The position numbers and the translations under genes were made by a program. A DNA stretch of 64,000 bases from Myxococcaceae bacterium JPH2 (GTDB lineage: Bacteria > Myxococcota > Myxococcia > Myxococcales > Myxococcaceae), in assembly GCA_016458225.1 (NCBI GenBank), contig JAEMGR010000009.1, forward strand, positions 62,001-126,000, read 5' to 3'. Positions within the stretch are counted from its first letter, which is position 1, and each line of letters opens with the position of its first letter. Positions 21,500 through 32,005 of this stretch are shown here, in pieces. Below the pieces are notes generated by a model that was not told the DNA's origin, did no database searches, and saw nothing but the letters and a program-made list of their open reading frames with translations.

Positions 21500-23386
21500 T
21501 CACTTCACCCGCACCAACGTCCAGGGCTCATAGAGGATGAGCGACTCGGGCCCTTGGATGCCGAGTTGATACCAGATACGACCCTCTGAGACGTCGGTTG
21601 CCTCGCGCCAGTGCGGACCCTCACCGGCATACGGCCCGTCCAGTTCGTAGGACTCGGCGCGCTCTGTCCGCCGGAAGCGGCAGACTACACGCCAGCCGGA
21701 CGGCAACGACTTGTCGAGGCGAGCGCGAACGGCCACTCGACCGTCTTGACGTTCCACCACACCGCGCGGGCGTGGCAATGACTCCAAGAACGCACGCTGC
21801 TCGGTCACCTGCGCGTCCAGTCCGGCGAACATGTCGTCGAACACCTGGGACAAGTCGATGCCGGCGGTCTGGAACGCGTCCTGCCACGCGAGCGCGCCGT
21901 CGAGCCCCTCGGGGGCATCCTTGCGCCCGATCGCGGCGAGCACGCGGGCCGGCGCGCCATCTCCGTATCTCCGCACGAGCGCGTCCACGAAGGCCCGTCC
22001 CAGTGGATACACCCAGTCCGCATCCCGGTCCGCCGCGAGGCGCTCCGGCTCCAGCAACTCCTCGACCTTCACCTCGCGCCGCGCCCGCGCCGCCGCGGCG
22101 ATGAGTTGATAATCCGACGTCCGCGACGGCGAGAAGAAGCGCGTCTCCACGTAGGTGGCCAGCCCCTCGCTGAGCAACTTCATGCGAGACAGCTTGGGCA
22201 CCGAGGCCACGCCCACCAACCGATGGGCGAGGACGTGCGTCGTCTCGTGACCGAGCACCGCGCGCGCTCGCTCCGCGTCGGACGCACCCGCGAGATCCAT
22301 CCGCAGGGTGTTCCAGTAGGCCGTGCCGCCCGTGTGCACCGCGCTGCCGCCGAGGTCCGCATGGATGAGGGCGCCAGGTTCCTCACCGAGGAACTGGCGC
22401 ACCTGCTCATGCACACCATCCGCCGCATCGAGCAACGGGCCGGCGCGCGTGCGCAGCTCGGCGGGATACGTGAAGCGGTAGTAGCGCGTGGCCGCCTGCG
22501 CGACCGCGCTCACGGGGAAGCGGACGCGGGGACTCTCGTCCGGGGCAGCTCCACCCTCCGCCCCTCCCGCATTGGGGCCGAGCAGCCGCGCGAGCACCGC
22601 GATGAACAGTCCGAGTGTGGCCAGGGTCACCACGCCGCTCATCCACGAGTTCTGCAACCAGCGCAGCAGCGCGCCCAACCGCCGCTGCCCCAGGCCGAGG
22701 AACTGCGCGAGCGCGATGAACAGCAGCACGCCCGAGCCCCCGAGTTGGACAGCCATGGCCTCCAGGGGCCACGGCCAGCGCGTCCCCTCGAACTCCGGCG
22801 AGGTGAGCTGGAGCGGGTTGAGCGCGGCGAGCCACGGCACGCGATCCTGCCAGAGGCTCAGCGCCATCATCAGCACCGCCAGCGCGGTCCACGACAGTCG
22901 CCGCAGCGGCGCGAGCGCCAAGGCCAGCGACAGCACCGCGAGCGCCTGGATGATGCGCAGCACCGAGCCAACCAGCAGCAGATCCACGTGCAGGCCCGCG
23001 TCGAGCGAGGTGCGCGACAGCCCGTGCTCCACGAGCGTCCAGGCCGTGAGTCCCAGCGGATACAGCAACACCAGACCCAACGCGACGCCCAGCTTCACGG
23101 TGAACAACATCCCGCGCGAGGTGGGCAGCGCGTCGAGGAACTCCAGCGTGCGATCATCCTGCTCACGCACGAGCAGACCCGTCCCCAGCGCGAAGGCGAG
23201 GACGAAGGTCATGGTGGACAGGTCCCCGCCCACCTTGAAGCGCTCGACGAACGTCTCCGCGTAGGGGCTGAACCCCAGCGGCTCTGTCCACAGCGAGGTG
23301 ATGACCTCCACGGCCAGGAAGAACAACGAGAGCCAGAGGAACGGGCGTTGGTCTCTCAGCTCCTTCGCGATGAGCGGGCGGATCAT
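21500..23386 (-). CDS. ABC-2 permease fused to a gluzincin-type peptidase domain (HExxH intact)
   Basis: This 628-residue protein begins with an ABC-2 permease of six or so membrane segments (residues 1-270; KELRDQRPFLWLSLFFLAVE, VREQDDRTLEFLDALPTSRG). A soluble C-terminal region (290-628) carries the zinc-peptidase motif HETTH at residues 380-384 and a downstream Glu407 in LLSEGLATYVE, the layout of peptidase MA/M1-like enzymes. The ATG at 23386 overlaps the preceding permease stop as ATGA. It would form the transmembrane part of an ABC exporter with the ATPase at 25233. The site of the peptidase domain (periplasmic or cytoplasmic) depends on the number of spans and is not certain. Confidence 0.82.
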   Translation of the reverse strand: MIRPLIAKELRDQRPFLWLSLFFLAVEVITSLWTEPLGFSPYAETFVERFKVGGDLSTMTFVLAFALGTGLLVREQDDRTLEFLDALPTSRGMLFTVKLGVALGLVLLYPLGLTAWTLVEHGLSRTSLDAGLHVDLLLVGSVLRIIQALAVLSLALALAPLRRLSWTALAVLMMALSLWQDRVPWLAALNPLQLTSPEFEGTRWPWPLEAMAVQLGGSGVLLFIALAQFLGLGQRRLGALLRWLQNSWMSGVVTLATLGLFIAVLARLLGPNAGGAEGGAAPDESPRVRFPVSAVAQAATRYYRFTYPAELRTRAGPLLDAADGVHEQVRQFLGEEPGALIHADLGGSAVHTGGTAYWNTLRMDLAGASDAERARAVLGHETTHVLAHRLVGVASVPKLSRMKLLSEGLATYVETRFFSPSRTSDYQLIAAAARARREVKVEELLEPERLAADRDADWVYPLGRAFVDALVRRYGDGAPARVLAAIGRKDAPEGLDGALAWQDAFQTAGIDLSQVFDDMFAGLDAQVTEQRAFLESLPRPRGVVERQDGRVAVRARLDKSLPSGWRVVCRFRRTERAESYELDGPYAGEGPHWREATDVSEGRIWYQLGIQGPESLILYEPWTLVRVK

Positions 23387-25236
23387 TGAATCTCCCTCCG
23401 CTCCGCGAGCAGCCGCACCGGACACCCCAGCTCCGGCATCTCCCGCTGCATCACGAACAACCAGCGCTCTCCCCGCGCGAGGGCCTGGGGAAGGATGACC
23501 GCTTCATCCGCGCCCACCGCGTCCTGTCGCGACAGCGCGTACGGCGCCACCTCGGCGGTGAACGGACCGAGATTCTGGGACAGCAGCGCATACCGTCCGA
23601 CCGCGGTGCTCCCCTCCCCTCGCAGCCGGTGCTCCAATCGGAACGTCTCCTGCGACTCCGCCACCAGCGTCAGGGAGGGATGCAGGCGCGCCAGGGCTTC
23701 GAGCAAGGCGGGGTGCGCGGCCCGATCCGCGCTCGCGGCGGCGCGCCAGCGCGTGAACAGCTCGGCCTCGGAGCCGAGGCCCTGCGCGCGCAGCAAGGCC
23801 TCCAACCGAGGCTCGCTCAACCGCCCCGCGACGCCCGTCCCCGGAGGCCAGGCCAGCAGCTGTCTCGCCATCGCCTGGAAGGCCTCTTCGCGCAGCTGAC
23901 TTCGCAGCACGGTGATGCCTCGCGCGGCCAGTGCTCCGGCAAGGCACGGGCCCAGGCGCTCGCGCGTCGTGAGCCAGGCGCGTGGATCAAACTCGTCTCG
24001 CGAGGCCACGGCGACGCGCGGAGACAGGCGGGCATCCTCCTGCTCGCGGCGCGCCCACCATGCCGTGAAGCCGTCCAGCCACCACCGCCGGTCCTCGCGC
24101 AACACCTGTCCCTTGCTCGTCCAGATCAGCACCTGCTGGAAGAGGAAGGCCTCGAAGTCACGCACGTCGAACGCGGGGTCCGCGAGGTTGGCGCGCACGA
24201 CGACCCCGTCCGCGTTCTCCAACTCCGCGCGCTGGTACACGTCCGCGTCCAGCTCGCGGATGGGCATCACCGCCACCGCGGGCAGCTTCGCCAGTCCCAG
24301 ATAGCTGGCCAGCGCGCCCAGGTCGTTCGCGATGCGCGTGGCGAGCCGGGCCGCGTCCTCATGCGAGAAACCCACGCCCGAAGACACCTGGACAGGTGAG
24401 CCCACGGCCAGGGCCTGCTCCGCGTCGTGCAACGTGAACGGCTGACGCTGCTTGGCCGCGTCCATCACCGAGATGACGACCAGCATCCCGACGCTGACGC
24501 ACGCGATGAAGACCTTCTCGCGGTGACTCATCCGCTGGGAGAGCAGCTCGGCGAGCGTCCCATCGCGGTGCAACACGAGGGCGAAGCACAGCGCGACCAG
24601 GCTCAGGATGGCGACCCAGCAGATCGCCAACGCGCCCCAGGGGAAGTGCTGGCGCTCGAACGCGAAGTCACTGCCCAGGAGCACCGTGGGCCCGAACCGC
24701 GAGAGGTCGAAGTCCGTGAGGCGATCCGCCGCGAACAGCGCGATGACGAGCATCAGGTACAGCGGATTGCGATAGCGACCAATCAGCCCCGCGAGCGCGA
24801 AGAACATCCAGCCCAGCAGCACGGGCGTGGCCGCGCGCAGGCTCAGGATGAGCAGGAACCGCGAGGACAAGTCCTCGTGATGGCGCGCGCGACCCCACAG
24901 CGCCAATCCCGTCAACGCGAGCGGCAACAACAACACCCCACCGCCCAGCAGGAGCTTGGTGGCGAGGATGCTCGCGCGGGAGAGCGGGAGCGACTCCAAG
25001 AAGAGCTGCGTGCGCTGGCCGTACTCGCGCGTCACCAGCCGGTGCGCCACGAACAAGGCCGCCGCGGTGGACAGCATCACCGCCGGTATCTTGAGCACCT
25101 CCATCAAGGTGCCGTGCGTCGCGTAGCGCGCCTCGTTGAGCACCAGCAGCACGCCCAACACACCGAACAGCACGTTGAGGAGGATGAGCGCGCCGCGGTG
25201 CTCGCGCCACTCCTTGCGCAACAACGCGGCGCTCAT
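23383..25236 (-). CDS. ABC-2 permease fused to a degenerate peptidase-like domain
   Basis: This 617-residue protein has the same plan as its neighbour: about six membrane segments (residues 15-260; REYGQRTQLFLESLPLSRAS is the permease hallmark) and a soluble C-terminal region (280-617). Where the neighbour has HETTHVL and LLSEGLA, this one has LFQQVLI (residues 365-371) and WWLDGFTAWW (385-394), so both zinc-binding histidines and the Glu are lost. It overlaps the ATPase gene and the next permease by 4 nt each. It probably works as the non-catalytic half of a heterodimeric transporter. Confidence 0.8.
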   Translation of the reverse strand: MSAALLRKEWREHRGALILLNVLFGVLGVLLVLNEARYATHGTLMEVLKIPAVMLSTAAALFVAHRLVTREYGQRTQLFLESLPLSRASILATKLLLGGGVLLLPLALTGLALWGRARHHEDLSSRFLLILSLRAATPVLLGWMFFALAGLIGRYRNPLYLMLVIALFAADRLTDFDLSRFGPTVLLGSDFAFERQHFPWGALAICWVAILSLVALCFALVLHRDGTLAELLSQRMSHREKVFIACVSVGMLVVISVMDAAKQRQPFTLHDAEQALAVGSPVQVSSGVGFSHEDAARLATRIANDLGALASYLGLAKLPAVAVMPIRELDADVYQRAELENADGVVVRANLADPAFDVRDFEAFLFQQVLIWTSKGQVLREDRRWWLDGFTAWWARREQEDARLSPRVAVASRDEFDPRAWLTTRERLGPCLAGALAARGITVLRSQLREEAFQAMARQLLAWPPGTGVAGRLSEPRLEALLRAQGLGSEAELFTRWRAAASADRAAHPALLEALARLHPSLTLVAESQETFRLEHRLRGEGSTAVGRYALLSQNLGPFTAEVAPYALSRQDAVGADEAVILPQALARGERWLFVMQREMPELGCPVRLLAERREIQ

Positions 25237-26186
25237 GCCTCGTCCGACCGCCGCGCGTACGCGAGGAAGATGTCCTCCAGCGAGAGCGCCTCGATGGCCT
25301 CGCGCGGGAACGGGCTCGTGTCCCAGGACTCGGGCGCACCCGAGTAGACCCAGGCTCGGCGGCCCTCGCTCGCGCGCTCCTTGCGCACCAGCTCCAGACC
25401 GGGAGGCACCGCCTCGGGCCCGGGCTCGTCCAGGCGCACCCGACGCACGGACTGGCGCAGCCGCTCCAGGCTCCCCTGATAGCGCAGGCGCCCCTCGTGG
25501 AGGATGCCGATGCGATGCGCCACCTCCTCCACCTCGCCCACGAGGTGCGAGGAGAACAGCGCCGTCTGGCCCTCGCTCCGGACCTGCTCGCGGAGGATGT
25601 CGAGGAACTCGCGCCGCGCGACCGGATCCAATCCGGCGGTGGGCTCATCCAGGATGAGCAGCGGCGGGCGATGCGCCAGGGCCAGCGCCAAACCCAACTT
25701 CATGCGCGTGCCGCCGGAGAGCTGCGCGGACTTGCGATCCACCGGGACGTCCAGCACGCGCAACAGCCGCGTGAAGTGGGCCGCGTCCCAATCCGAATAG
25801 AAGCCGGCGACGAACTCCCCGAGCTGCTTCGCCGACATCCACGGATAGAACACCTGCTCCTGGGACACGTAGCCGAGCCGTCGCTTCTGGGCCGCGCGGA
25901 CGCGGCGCACGCGCTCGCCCATCAGCTCGATCTCACCGGCGTCCGGACGCAGGATGCCCATCAGCATCCGCAGCGTCGTCGTCTTCCCGGCGCCGTTGCG
26001 CCCGAGGAAGCCGTAGACCTCACCGCGGCGCAGCTCCAGGTCCACGCCGTTGACCGCGCGCACGGCATCGAACGCGCGCACGAGGCCGAACGTGCGAAGC
26101 ACCACCTCGGGCTCCGCGAGAGGGGCCCCTGAAGCCGGCACGTCCGTCGCCTCCCCCGTGGCGACAGCGGCATTCTCATCAATCAT
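25233..26186 (-). CDS. ABC transporter ATPase
   Basis: This 317-residue cytoplasmic ATPase powers the two ABC-2 permeases encoded right after it. The motifs are Walker A GRNGAGKTT, Q-loop YVSQEQVFYP, signature LSGGTRMKL (in place of LSGGQ), Walker B LLILDEPTAGLD and switch SSHLVGEVEEVA. The C-terminal extension (residues about 235-317) is typical of ABC-2 type exporter ATPases. It ends in a 4-nt ATGA overlap with the first permease gene. The start has an AGGA 11 nt upstream. The substrate is unknown. Confidence 0.9.
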   Translation of the reverse strand: MIDENAAVATGEATDVPASGAPLAEPEVVLRTFGLVRAFDAVRAVNGVDLELRRGEVYGFLGRNGAGKTTTLRMLMGILRPDAGEIELMGERVRRVRAAQKRRLGYVSQEQVFYPWMSAKQLGEFVAGFYSDWDAAHFTRLLRVLDVPVDRKSAQLSGGTRMKLGLALALAHRPPLLILDEPTAGLDPVARREFLDILREQVRSEGQTALFSSHLVGEVEEVAHRIGILHEGRLRYQGSLERLRQSVRRVRLDEPGPEAVPPGLELVRKERASEGRRAWVYSGAPESWDTSPFPREAIEALSLEDIFLAYARRSDEA

Positions 26187-26249: not shown

Positions 26250-26600
26250 TCACTGGCCCAGGTCGTCGATGAGCACGGGCTGGAGCCGGGCGAGCGCATC
26301 CGGCGACACGTCCAGGAACGCCAGCCCCACCTCGTAGCGGGCCACCGAGTCCTTGGGGAGCTTCAACGTCCACACCACGCGCGCGGTACACTCGAGGCTC
26401 CCACCGTCCGGCAGGAACAGCTCGACGTCCAGGCGACTGCCTTCGGCGTGGTATTCGTCGGAGTAGATGCGGGCGCCACTGAGGCTGACGTCCAGCACCT
26501 TTCGCTTCTCTCCGAACTGGACCCGCGCCGGACGCGCATACAACGGGGCCTGGAGGCGAGGGAACGAACGACGGTCGATCGGGCCGGTCTCGGTAGGCAC
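26250..26600 (-). CDS. PilZ domain protein (c-di-GMP receptor)
   Basis: This 116-residue protein is a single PilZ domain. The c-di-GMP-binding motifs RRSFPR (RxxxR) at residues 10-15 and DVSLSGARI (D/NxSxxG) at 37-45 are both intact, so it should bind c-di-GMP and act as a small adaptor for motility, exopolysaccharide or development. The start is a GTG at 26600 with a TACAAT 8 nt upstream, which suggests a leaderless transcript. It lies between the ABC ATPase and the CPBP gene on the same strand. Confidence 0.88.
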   Translation of the reverse strand: MPTETGPIDRRSFPRLQAPLYARPARVQFGEKRKVLDVSLSGARIYSDEYHAEGSRLDVELFLPDGGSLECTARVVWTLKLPKDSVARYEVGLAFLDVSPDALARLQPVLIDDLGQ

Positions 26601-26608
26601 GGCACACG

Positions 26609-26614
26609 ATTGTA
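26609..26614 (-). promoter_or_regulatory. candidate -10 box for the PilZ gene
   Basis: On the minus strand this is TACAAT, ending 8 nt before the PilZ GTG. Transcription starting about 7 nt later would begin at or near the start codon, giving a leaderless mRNA. No -35 match was seen. Confidence 0.35.
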
Positions 26615-26635
26615 AACCAGACAGCCATGCCCAGC

Positions 26636-27460
26636 CTACTCACCGGGGTCCCGGGGCACGGACGACCCCGTGGATGCCGCAGTGCTCCATGGCGGCAGGA
26701 GCACCACCCACCCCAACGCCACCAGCCCCGTCACGGCGGACAGCACGGGCATCCACCCGCCCACCGGGGTGACATCCACCACCAGGTCCATCCCTCCATT
26801 CGCGAGGTTCCAGCCCCAGTGCAGTCCCACCGCGCCCCACAGAGAGCCCGTGCGCGCGGCGGCCGCCGCGAAGGCCAGTCCGAGGGAGAAGAGCATCAGC
26901 CACTCCATCGGCCCCTTCCCCAAGCGATAGACGTGGGTCAGCACGAAGCACGCGGCGGAGAACAACACGTAGCCCACGCCTCGCCCGGCCACGGGCCACG
27001 CGCGCAGCCAGAAGCCTCGCGCGACGATGTCCTCCGCCAGCGACGGCACGAACGTCGTCACCAGGAGCCCGAGCGCCGCGACCGCCACGGTGCTCGCCTG
27101 GGGCGGACTCGCCAGGGGCTGGATGCGCACCCAGCCGAGCGCAGCCCCGACGAACAGGGACAGCGGCTTGAGCACGAGCATCCCCGCCAGCGCGGGCAGC
27201 AGCGCACGCGGTCGCCACTCCAGCGCGTAGGCGTGAAAGCCGTTGCGATAGCCCAGCCCGCGCCCCACGCCCCACGCCACCGCATGGAAGGACACCATCA
27301 GCACGGCGGCCAGCGTTGCGTTGCCGAGCAGCCGGCCGCCAAGCCCCTCGGGTGCCTCGTAGGCGGCGAAGAGGACGAGGAACGCCAGGGCGACCCACGC
27401 GCGGTGAGGGGACACCGCCACGGGGAGCGCGGGAGCTGCGGGGACGGGGCGGATCGACAT
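26636..27460 (-). CDS. CPBP-family intramembrane protease-like protein
   Basis: This 274-residue polytopic membrane protein has 7-8 hydrophobic segments. Three motifs of the CPBP (Abi, CAAX protease-like) family are present: EDIVARGFW in place of EExxxR, FVLTHVYRL (FxxxH) and HWGWNLANG (HxxxN). The second Glu of the first motif is Asp, so activity is not certain. The family includes prenyl-protein processing enzymes and phage-defence or bacteriocin-immunity proteins. No partner gene here tells its substrate. It is read in the same direction as the urease operon but lies beyond that operon's terminator-like hairpin. Confidence 0.8.
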   Translation of the reverse strand: MSIRPVPAAPALPVAVSPHRAWVALAFLVLFAAYEAPEGLGGRLLGNATLAAVLMVSFHAVAWGVGRGLGYRNGFHAYALEWRPRALLPALAGMLVLKPLSLFVGAALGWVRIQPLASPPQASTVAVAALGLLVTTFVPSLAEDIVARGFWLRAWPVAGRGVGYVLFSAACFVLTHVYRLGKGPMEWLMLFSLGLAFAAAAARTGSLWGAVGLHWGWNLANGGMDLVVDVTPVGGWMPVLSAVTGLVALGWVVLLPPWSTAASTGSSVPRDPGE

Positions 27461-27520: not shown

Positions 27521-28108
27521 TCAGGGTCCCACGGTCACCGCCGAGCCGATGAAGGGCACGACGCTCGTGAACCGGGACGTCGGAGGCATCACGCCCGTGG
27601 GCCCGGCCTCGCCCCACTGGGTGATGCCGTGCGGCAGCAGCCGCTTCAGGTCGTGGATGCGGCCCTGGAACTCGAACTCCGTGCTCCACACGAGCTTCGC
27701 GGTGAAGACATTGAGGGACAGCGCGCGCTTGCGCTCCTCCGTGAAGTCCGCGCCCAGCACCACGCTCGCCCGACGGAACGTCGCGATGCGCGTCCCCTCG
27801 GAGAACGAGTCCGGGCGAGCGAAGGACGCGCCGGGTCGCTGCCGGAGAAACAGCGAGAACTCACCCACCGGATCCACGCTCAGGGCGAGATCGCCGTTGG
27901 TGAATGACACGGAGCGGAACGGCTCCGCGCGGAACGTGAGCAGCGCGGTGGACTCGCTCGGAGGTGCCCCAGGCGGTGCGTCGAACAGCGGCCCGTCCAG
28001 CCCCTGGAGGTGGATGAAGTAGCCCAGGTCTTCCAGCCAGCCCTCGAAGGACTTGTAGAAGCGCCCCGTCACATACCACGCGACCTGCCCTGTGCTGAGA
28101 GGCGTCAT
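27521..28108 (-). CDS. unknown protein coupled to ureG
   Basis: This 195-residue soluble protein matches no family that I recognise. It has no signal peptide, membrane span, Cys cluster or His-rich tract. It seems beta-rich (for example [25 protein letters not shown] and [22 protein letters not shown]). Its ATG at 28108 overlaps the stop of ureG as ATGA, so both are made from one message in a coupled way, and a strong hairpin follows its stop. The position suggests a role in urease maturation or use, but that is inference. Confidence 0.75.
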
Positions 28109-28836
28109 GCCACGGCCCTCCCACCATGGCGCCGCCACGCCTCGAGCAGATGCGTGATGACCGCGTCCAGCCCCACGCCTCGCGTCACCTGGGTGAAGAC
28201 GAAGGGCCCGGTGCCCCGCATCTTGCGCGCATCGCGCTCCATGACACCCAGGTCCGCGCCCACGTGCGGCGCCAGGTCCGTCTTGTTGATGATGAGGAGA
28301 TCCGACTGGGTGATGCCAGGACCGCCCTTGCGCGGCACCTTGTCTCCACCCGCCACGTCAATGACATACACGGTGTAGTCCGCCAGCTCGCGGCTGTACT
28401 GCGCCGCGAGGTTGTCGCCCCCGCTCTCGACGATGAGCAACTCCGGCTTCAGCTCCTCCATGAGCTGCTCCAGCGCCAGCAGGTTGTGGCTGATGTCCTC
28501 GCGAATGGCCGCGTGCGGACAGCCGCCGGTCTCCACCGCGCGGATGCGCTCGGGTGACAGCGCCTGATTGCGGACGAGGAACTCCGCGTCCTCCTTCGTG
28601 AAGATGTCATTCGTCACCACGCCCAGGCGGATCCGCTCGCGCAGGGCCCGGCACAGCGCCAGCACGAGCGCCGTCTTGCCGCTGCCCACGGGGCCGCCAA
28701 TGCCAATCGTGAACGCGCGCGTGGAGAAGTCGCGCCGGCGGGTTGGCTCGCGCTCCTCGTAGTGCCCAGGGTGCTCCCATTCCTCATGCTCGTGGTCGGT
28801 GTCGTCATGGCCATGGCCACGGTGGTCGTCGTGCAT
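28105..28836 (-). CDS. ureG: urease accessory GTPase UreG
   Basis: UreG delivers Ni2+ to the urease active site in a GTP-dependent complex with UreF and UreD. All motifs are present: P-loop GPVGSGKT (residues 48-55), the nickel-binding CPH in [27 protein letters not shown], and [13 protein letters not shown]. The N-terminal 25 residues hold eight His, a nickel-storage tail like those seen in some bacteria without UreE. The ATG at 28836 has GAGG 5 nt upstream. It follows ureF after 11 nt. Confidence 0.96.
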
Positions 28837-28847
28837 GTCGCCTCACC

Positions 28848-29510
28848 TCAGGACAGGAAGAGCCTCGAATAGAGTCGGTCGTGCGTCGAGCCGAGCAGGT
28901 CCAACACCGGCGAAGGCTGCGCCAGCGACGCCACGCCCAGGTCCGCGCATTGCGCCAACACCGCGTCGAGTCGTGGCGCACTCTCATGCTGGAGCTGGTG
29001 CGACTCGTGCGTGCCGATGATGCCCAGCCGCACGCCCGCGGACAGCGCGCCTCGCAGCGTCAATGAGAGGAAGAGGCGCCGCGTGTCATCCGCATCCACC
29101 TCCAACACCCGCAGCACCGCGCCGAACAGCGGCGCATGGTGGCATCGCAGTCCCTGGGCTCGCGCGGCCTCGCGCAGCGGCGCGACGGTCTCCGGGAAGA
29201 TGCGGGCACAGGTGTCCAGGAACGCGCGGCCCTGCGTGCGGCTCGCGCGATGGGCCATGTGGTTGGAGAGGAAGCTGTCCGCGCGCGCGTCCAGGCGCGG
29301 CAGCGCGGTGGGGTCCGCGTGCGCCTCGTTCACCAAGGGGAGGCCTCCCAGGCCGGCCTGCCACAGCAGCTCGCGCACGAAGCGCCGCATGCCGTCGGCG
29401 CCGCGCACCTCGCCCTGCTGGACCGCTGCCTCCAGTCCACCGGAGTGCGCGAAGCCCCCCGTGGGAAAGCCGGAGTCCGCGAGCTGCAACACGCGCCAGG
29501 AAGTGCCCAA
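28848..29510 (-). CDS. ureF: urease accessory protein UreF
   Basis: UreF acts as the GTPase-regulating partner in the UreDFG nickel-insertion complex. This 220-residue all-helical protein starts with the family signature WRVLQLADSGFPTGGFAHSG and has the C-terminal RLFLSLTLRGALSAGVRLGIIG. The start is a TTG at 29510 with AGAGG 9 nt upstream; no ATG is available nearby in frame. It lies between ureC (12-nt gap) and ureG. Confidence 0.93.
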   Translation of the reverse strand: MGTSWRVLQLADSGFPTGGFAHSGGLEAAVQQGEVRGADGMRRFVRELLWQAGLGGLPLVNEAHADPTALPRLDARADSFLSNHMAHRASRTQGRAFLDTCARIFPETVAPLREAARAQGLRCHHAPLFGAVLRVLEVDADDTRRLFLSLTLRGALSAGVRLGIIGTHESHQLQHESAPRLDAVLAQCADLGVASLAQPSPVLDLLGSTHDRLYSRLFLS

Positions 29511-29522
29511 GGCCCGTGCCTC

Positions 29523-31238
29523 TCAGAACAACGAGTAGCGCTGCGTGAGCGGAAGGCGCACGGCCGGCTCGCAGCGCAGCAGCTCGCCGTCGGCGCGGAC
29601 CTCGTAGGTCTCTGGGTCCACCGTCAGGTGAGGCAGCGCATCGTTGAGCCGCATGTCGCGCTTGGTCAGGCCCCGGCAGCGCCGCACCGCGGACAGGTGC
29701 TTGGTCAACCCGAGTTCGTCCAATCGCCCCTCGGACAGCGCGCGCGCCGACACGAAGGCCACGCTGGTGGCGCCCACCGCGCGTCCGCGCGCGCCGAACA
29801 TCGGACGCATGAGGTACGGCTGCGGCGTGGGGATGGATGCGTTCGCGTCTCCCATCTGCGCCCACGCGGTGAGCCCGCCCTTGAGCACCAGCTCCGGACG
29901 GATGCCGAAGAACGCGGGACGCCACAGGACCAGGTCCGCCAGCTTCCCCACCTCCACCGAGCCCACGTCATGCGACAGCCCGTGGGCGATGGCGGGGTTG
30001 ATGGTGTACTTGGCCACGTAGCGACGAATGCGCAGGTTGTCGTTGTCGCCTCGCTCTTCACCCAGGCGCCCGCGCTGCTCGCGCATCTTGTGCGCCGTCT
30101 GCCAGGTGCGGCAGATGACCTCGCCCACGCGCCCCATCGCCTGACTGTCCGAGGACATCATGCTGATGGCCCCCAGGTCGTGGAGGATGTCCTCCGCGGC
30201 GATCGTCTCGCCCCGGATGCGGCTCTCCGCGAACGCCACGTCCTCGGGAATCTCCGTATCCAGGTGGTGACACACCATGAGCATGTCGAGGTGCTCATCC
30301 AGCGTGTTCACCGTGTACGGCCGCGTGGGGTTCGTCGAGCTGGGCAGCACGTGCTCCACGCCGCACACGCGGATGATGTCCGGCGCGTGTCCGCCGCCCG
30401 CGCCCTCCGAGTGGTACGTGTGGATGGTGCGCCCACGGAAGGCCGCGAGCGAATCGTCCACGTAGCCCGACTCGTTGAGCGTGTCCGTGTGGATGGTGAC
30501 CTGGATGTCCTCGCCCTCGGCCACGCTCAGGCACGTGTCGATGGCGGCGGGAGTGGTGCCCCAATCCTCGTGAAGCTTCAGGCCGATGGCGCCCGCGCGG
30601 ATCTGCTCCAGCAGGCCCTGCGGCAGCGACGTGTTCCCCTTCCCCGTCAGCCCGATGTTGAGCGGCAGCGAGTCCGTGGACTGGAGCATCCGGCGCAGGT
30701 TCCACGCGCCCGGCGTGCACGTGGTCGCCTTGCTGCCCGTCGCGGGCCCCGTGCCTCCGCCCACCCAGGTGGTGATGCCGCTGGCGAGCGCCTCGTCCGC
30801 CTGCTGCGGGCAGATGAAATGGATGTGCGTGTCCAACCCGCCGGCCGTGACGATGAGGCCTTCCGCGGAGATGGCCTCGGTGGTGACCCCCACCACCATG
30901 CCCGGCGTCACGCCCGCCATGACATCCGGGTTGCCCGCCTTGCCAATGGCGCTGATCCGCCCCGCCTTGATGCCGATGTCCGCCTTGTAGATGCCGGTCC
31001 AGTCCAGGATGAGCGCGTTGGTGATGACGCAATCGAGCGCATCCGCGTCGCCCGTCCCCGCGCGCTGCCCCATGCCCTCGCGCAGGACCTTGCCTCCACC
31101 GAACTTGCACTCGTCTCCGTAGACGGTGGCGTCGCGCTCCACCTCGGCCCACAGGCCGGTGTCGCCCAGCCGCACGCGGTCGCCCGTGGTGGGCCCGAAC
31201 ATGTCCGCGTAGTGACGGCGATCGATTCCCCGGCTCAT
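29523..31238 (-). CDS. ureC: urease alpha subunit
   Basis: This is the catalytic subunit that hydrolyses urea to ammonia and carbamate with a di-nickel centre. At 571 residues it is full length. The metal ligands are intact: His138 and His140 ([14 protein letters not shown]), Lys221 (GLKLHEDWG, the residue that becomes carbamylated), His250 ([11 protein letters not shown]), His276 ([14 protein letters not shown]) and Asp364 ([11 protein letters not shown]). Cys323-His324 of the mobile flap (MVCHHLD) are also present. The ATG at 31238 overlaps the ureAB stop as ATGA, so the subunits are translationally coupled. Confidence 0.97.
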
Positions 31239-32005
31239 GACTGCTCCTCCTCGTGACCGAAGCCGCGCGAGCGCACCTGGGCCATGGCGCGCTCCAGCCC
31301 CTCGGGCGTCACCTCTCCGCTCCCCAACGCGTTGCCACCCTGCACGATGCGCGCGCCCGCGATGGGTACCAGCCGCACCGTCTTGCGCTCCCCTGGCTCG
31401 AAGCGCACCGCGGTGCCCGCGGGGATGTCCAAGCGGTGTCCGTAGGCCCGCGCCCGGTCGAACACCAGCGCACGGTTCGTCTCGAAGAAGGGGTAGTGAC
31501 TGCCCACTTGAATGGGACGATCTCCTCGGTGCGTGACGACGAGCGACACCTGCTCGCGGCCCGCGTTCAGGACAATCTCTCCCGGCGCCGTGCGCACCTC
31601 TCCGGGGGGACCTTCCGCGGAGGCCACGGGCCACGGGAAGCGCTCGCGCGCAGGCACTGGAAGGAAGCTGCCATGAAGCGCCAGCTCGAGGTCACCGTGG
31701 TCCGCCTCCACCGGGTGGTGCACGGTCACCAGCTTCGAGCCATCCGCGAACGTGCCCTCCACCTGCACCTCGACCAGCATCTCCGGCACGCCGTCCATCA
31801 CCTGCGCGCGCCCCAGCAGGCCCCGCCCCAGGTTCATCAACTCGGCCACGCTCTTCCCGTCACGGATGAACTCCAGCAACTGAGTGGCAATGAGCGCGAC
31901 GGCCTCCGGGTAGCTCAGCCTCAGGCCGCGCGCGAGCCGCTTCTGCGCGAGGAAGCCCGCTTGATGCAGCAACAGCTTGTCGACGTCTCGTGGGGACAGG
32001 TGCAT
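31235..32005 (-). CDS. ureAB: fused urease gamma and beta subunits
   Basis: This 256-residue protein joins the usual UreA (gamma, residues 1-100; starts [20 protein letters not shown], with [20 protein letters not shown]) and UreB (beta, residues about 135-240; [45 protein letters not shown]) in one chain. The same fusion is known in Helicobacter and some others. A linker of about 30 residues separates the parts. A GGGAG lies about 9 nt upstream of the ATG. It overlaps ureC and comes 84 nt after ureD. Confidence 0.95.

Follow-up and report, generated by a model that had tools for sequence, protein, structure and literature searches.

What could an ABC transporter do with a peptidase-like domain on each of its two permeases, when one of the two domains has lost its active site? 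This question is raised by a three-gene operon in the window, by which we mean the whole 64,000-nucleotide stretch of DNA from Myxococcaceae bacterium JPH2 analyzed here. On the minus strand, a gene for an ABC ATPase of 317 aa (25233..26186) is followed by genes for permease 1 of 617 aa (23383..25236) and permease 2 of 628 aa (21500..23386). The ATPase was assigned based on Pfam ABC_tran (E 1.5e-30) and its catalytic motifs; permease 1, which is without HExxH, based on an AlphaFold2 model and structure matches; and permease 2 based on Pfam ABC2_membrane_4 (E 4e-7), its model and its invariant catalytic residues. The 4-nt overlaps among the three genes described in an initial annotation are indeed present, and both junctions read ATGA: the ATPase stop overlaps the permease 1 start (25233..25236, minus strand), and the permease 1 stop overlaps the permease 2 start (23383..23386, minus strand). 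Both overlaps recur in related operons. The ORF list gives permease 2 a longer GTG start, which is probably incorrect.

The ATPase carries all motifs of an ABC exporter ATPase in intact form, namely Walker A (GRNGAGKT), the LSGG signature, Walker B (LLILDE) and the H-loop. Its nearest NCBIfam models are PmtA, DrrA and the lantibiotic-protection ATPases, all of them below cut-off. An anti-phage system was considered and rejected, because PADLOC returned only generic ATPase matches and none for the permeases.

In the models, permease 1 consists of a NosY-like ABC-2 unit (residues 1-231), a seventh transmembrane helix (about 238-262), a pseudopeptidase domain (264-516) and an FN3-like beta-sandwich (about 517-615). 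Permease 2 is built from a NosY-like ABC-2 unit (1-233), a seventh transmembrane helix (249-269), a gluzincin peptidase domain (about 294-537) and a beta-sandwich. The Pfam ABC-2 membrane domain was found above cut-off in permease 2 and below it in permease 1. Mean pLDDT of the AlphaFold2 models, which were based on inputs of 18-19 sequences, was 80.2 for permease 2 and 81.8 for permease 1, and with pTM values of 0.56 and 0.66 it is uncertain how the domains are placed with respect to the membrane unit. Using VIA-align, the membrane units (residues 1 to about 232) matched NosY best (Z 17.7 for permease 2, 15.1 for permease 1), followed by matches to ABCG and other ABC-2 transporters; the ABC-2 core also resembles the exporters ABCG2 and ABCG25. 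As judged by these matches to NosY/ABCG or related ABC-2 proteins, both permeases have the six-helix ABC-2 permease fold of type V exporters.

The initial annotation had placed a peptidase-like domain at the C-terminus of each ABC-2 permease, and the models agree with this assignment, as both domains are predicted to fold as gluzincin peptidases. For the permease 2 domain, the best VIA-align match was the M30 lugdulysin (Z 16.0), with M1 aminopeptidases and M9 collagenase close behind. The permease 1 domain matched M1 and M9 kinds of structure, with aminopeptidases reaching Z up to 13.8; values near 13 are possible without kinship for mostly helical models, and the relatedness of the domains rests on the sequence evidence given below. 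The order of secondary-structure elements is alike in the two domains. In the modelled topology, a seventh helix follows the six-helix unit and the loops with positive charge fall on the cytoplasmic side, so both domains should face the periplasm. In permease 1, the residues C431 and C605 are conserved in about 17/19 of the C-terminal domains; they might form a disulfide in the periplasm that only the dead subunit has.

The candidate active site of permease 2 comprises HETTH at residues 380-384 together with E407 and Y460. The residues H380, E381, H384, E407 and Y460 are invariant in 18/18 permease 2 sequences, so that the motif is not a chance occurrence, and all these catalytic positions are kept in relatives whose identity to the window protein is only 26-38%. 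The gluzincin layout read by the initial annotation, HETTH with a downstream Glu, is thus confirmed with Glu407, and in the context of the modelled fold it would place the domain among the gluzincins of the MA clan. Based on these residues, the domain is probably a zinc peptidase with a bound zinc ion. In M1 enzymes a Tyr serves as transition-state residue, a role that by analogy would fall to Y460. None of the Pfam peptidase models passed the cut-off on either window permease, and a profile search of PDB sequences yielded sub-threshold M1 matches only. Membership in the M1 family was rejected on Pfam scores: PF01433 was not reported for the window permease 2 and was found in 1/18 family members, at an E of only 0.21. 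PF13485 gave a weak match in 3/18 permease 2 family members.

Permease 1 of the window has QQVLI (367-371) at the HExxH position and LDGF with Asp388 at the site of the third ligand, and thus neither HExxH nor the downstream Glu of an active gluzincin. Other permease 1 sequences read REVLI, HELLK, HSIVG, HAVMA, HHALV or QEVLS at the HExxH position. Across the family, the first His is found in 8/19 and the catalytic Glu in 9/19 sequences; the second His and the third-ligand Glu are found in none (0/19 each), with an Asp at the latter site in 17/19. Because position-specific relics remain, we consider the HExxH motif of permease 1 to have been eroded. The statement that all three ligands are lost therefore holds for the window protein, but not family-wide, given the surviving first His. 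What stands throughout is the proposed active/pseudo pair: HExxH is kept in 18/18 permease 2 sequences and lost in permease 1, where the second His and the Glu are absent from 19/19, and the intact site always lies in the second permease of the pair.

The dead domain is nevertheless maintained under selection, because its dN/dS values are low (0.15-0.35, compared with 0.12-0.29 for the active domain, in four close pairs) and because its mean column identity equals that of the active domain (49% for both). A decaying pseudogene domain was rejected, since every relative retains the open frame and the dN/dS values lie far below 1.

Comparison of the permease 1 and permease 2 family profiles gave an E of 1.9e-21 over the full length, and of 1.8e-5 (probability 78%) for the C-terminal domains alone. 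Unrelated folds for the two C-terminal domains were rejected based on this comparison and on the shared gluzincin structure matches. The initial annotation had made its reading depend on related soluble domains and a conserved HETTH, and on both points the outcome is in its favour. Its interpretation is thus supported in part: the exporter layout, the two permease/peptidase fusions, the gluzincin layout and the active/pseudo pair hold, and the suggested cutting of a substrate during export, or sensing, stays a hypothesis. In a tree of the membrane domains with 19 sequences each, permease 1 and permease 2 form reciprocal clades (100/99 support), with the long branches of the two most distant genomes leaving their exact place unsure. 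The pairing therefore predates the spread of the operon over three Myxococcota families.

The permease 2 fusion was found in 19/195 Myxococcota genomes, with a patchy distribution in the main family and further occurrences in two other families. Where the permease pair was read in other genomes, the ATPase lies directly upstream in 16/18 cases. At one locus (L051) the contig begins at permease 1. At another (L050, 3119-7011, contig C566 of genome G148), the permease 1/permease 2 pair has no adjacent ATPase, and a divergent kinase-like gene stands upstream in its place. The genome of the window, which is 9.0 Mb in size and belongs to a strain sharing its genus with Citreicoccus inhibens M34, has one copy of the operon. 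No plasmid-borne copies of permease 2 were found, and permease 1 gave one chance-level match.

In the window, the trio is flanked by a gap of about 60 bp on each side; no precursor gene is adjacent to it, and these gaps leave no space for one. Likewise, neither a conserved neighbour nor a precursor peptide was found beside the related operons that were compared. The genes near the trio, encoding CAAX/Rce1-like, PilZ and TPR proteins as well as urease, are common only to the nearest relative. Directly upstream on the same strand, the region 26250-27460 encodes a PilZ-domain protein and a CAAX/Rce1-like intramembrane protease, and elsewhere these two genes adjoin the trio only in that relative. 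Further upstream (27521-31634) lie urease structural and accessory genes, which were recognized by visual reading of the translations and have counterparts in the nearest relative.

Several known systems share parts of this arrangement. The background claim of the initial annotation that some ABC-2 permeases carry M1-type peptidases is borne out by the ABC-2/M1 fusion exporters of TC 3.A.1.145 (Myxococcus xanthus Q1D520, 1200 aa, 13 TMS), with an M1 domain reported at the C-terminal end of an ABC-2 permease of M. xanthus and numbered TC 3.A.1.145.1 (PMC3924187). In this family as in the trio, an ABC-2 export permease carries a gluzincin-type zinc-peptidase domain at its C-terminus. However, TC 3.A.1.145 is a single polypeptide with 12-13 transmembrane helices and one M1 domain, whereas the trio has two seven-helix half-permeases of 617-628 aa, each with a smaller, non-M1 domain, one active and one dead. 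The trio is thus not a member of the family as defined by one long ABC-2 permease with M1, although it may work like one. An apparent TC 3.A.1.145-type system is encoded in the same genome as the trio (L088, 4084-8445, on contig C3 near 464521), where an ABC-2 permease with about 12 transmembrane helices, fused to an M1 domain (HEAAH), lies directly beside an ATPase. The theme of a peptidase on an ABC-2 permease therefore recurs.

Among solved structures, NosY of NosDFY has the closest fold to both membrane units. NosDFY, in which NosD is a separate protein, acts in the maturation of a copper enzyme, and NosY is not known to have a seventh helix or a peptidase domain. The profile of the permease 2 C-terminal domain also reached stand-alone proteins of the Peptidase MA superfamily (PF13485-like, HExxH...NEGLAEY) in many Myxococcota genomes, which, unlike permease 2, have no permease fusion. 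One stand-alone relative of the domain (L053, 4378-6147, contig C4 of genome G013) has HETAH and HEGLA and is without a permease part; the same genome also carries the fused operon. The M16 pairs resemble the trio in having a dead paralogue beside an active metallopeptidase, but M16 enzymes have an inverted HxxEH motif, a different fold and no known transporter fusion. Such active/dead pairs occur in the mitochondrial processing peptidase and in bacterial M16B, where they derive from a two-gene operon (PMC11266112). LanFEG and PmtABCD are, like the trio, ABC-2 type exporters with a distantly similar ATPase; we know of no peptidase domains in them. In the open-licence literature, no description of two half-permeases with an active/dead pair was found, which is weak evidence of absence; what appears to be new is that a fixed active/pseudopeptidase pair, of a smaller and non-M1 type, is divided between two half-permeases.

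Taken together, we propose a heteromeric ABC-2 exporter in which paired active and dead periplasmic gluzincin domains cleave peptides in the course of export, a reading to which we assign about an even chance of being correct. The type V, NosY/ABCG-like complex would consist of two ATPase copies, one permease 1 and one permease 2, a 2:1:1 stoichiometry that we infer from the single ATPase gene and the two permease genes of the operon. Each permease would contribute a six-helix ABC-2 unit and a seventh helix that puts its gluzincin domain in the periplasm, where the predicted zinc peptidase of permease 2 would pair with its catalytically dead paralogue from permease 1. Driven by ATP, extrusion could then bring peptides, whether free or as portions of conjugates, into a periplasmic chamber, there to be cut by the active domain while its dead partner holds them in position or gives the cleft its shape. 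Peptide specificity is assumed here by analogy, from family resemblance. In favour of the exporter model, the trio is kept across relatives, whereas the genes around it recur only in the nearest one; the missing adjacent substrate or precursor gene and the pair without an adjacent ATPase count against it. In an elaboration that we regard as unlikely, the operon would encode an ATP-gated periplasmic protease, in which the ABC motor opens and closes the peptidase/pseudopeptidase pair and so couples extrusion and cleavage mechanically.

The same flow of substrate could also serve detoxification instead of maturation: antimicrobial peptides or lipopeptides would be pulled from the inner membrane, as by LanFEG and PmtABCD, and destroyed by the periplasmic peptidase. 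LanFEG is composed of one ATPase and two permeases, the layout seen here, and the nearest models of the ATPase include PmtA and lantibiotic protection; this similarity is, however, generic and below all curated cut-offs. A dedicated precursor is absent at the locus, as would be expected for such a role. A co-encoded peptide of the LanFEG type does not fit beside the trio in the window either, and no neighbour is conserved; it could be encoded elsewhere. The CAAX/Rce1-like family is often tied to bacteriocin immunity, and a member is encoded upstream in the window and in the nearest relative, but it is not kept beside other copies of the operon. On balance we judge self-protection or defence to be somewhat unlikely.

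The absence of a substrate gene at the locus would also suit a complex that pumps nothing, in which the seventh helices, set in motion by ATP hydrolysis, open or close the peptidase/pseudopeptidase pair and so switch proteolysis of an envelope substrate. FtsEX and MacB act on periplasmic partners in this way of working across the membrane, and the closest permease fold, NosY, belongs to an ABC unit with a periplasmic partner; here the peptidase would be tethered directly via the extra helix. Yet no conserved periplasmic partner was found, and the resemblance of the ABC-2 core to the true exporters ABCG2 and ABCG25 also speaks against mechanotransmission, which we consider quite improbable. Finally, both C-terminal domains might be non-enzymatic binding or sensor domains, with HExxH merely holding a structural zinc, and one of the two is in fact already dead. 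A structural zinc site would, however, need neither a general base nor the Tyr, and Glu381 and Tyr460 are invariant along with the other catalytic positions of permease 2 at 26-38% identity, which makes this explanation highly improbable.

Peptidase-fused ABC-2 transporters have been catalogued for years without a known substrate. With the live/dead pair fixed across the phylum, point mutants in one gene would allow transport to be separated from cleavage, with the dead subunit as a built-in control. The pair also brings the active/pseudo arrangement of the M16 processing peptidases into a different fold, that of the gluzincins, and into a transporter. If gated proteolysis powered by an ABC-2 transporter proves true, it would represent a new class of energy-dependent protease.
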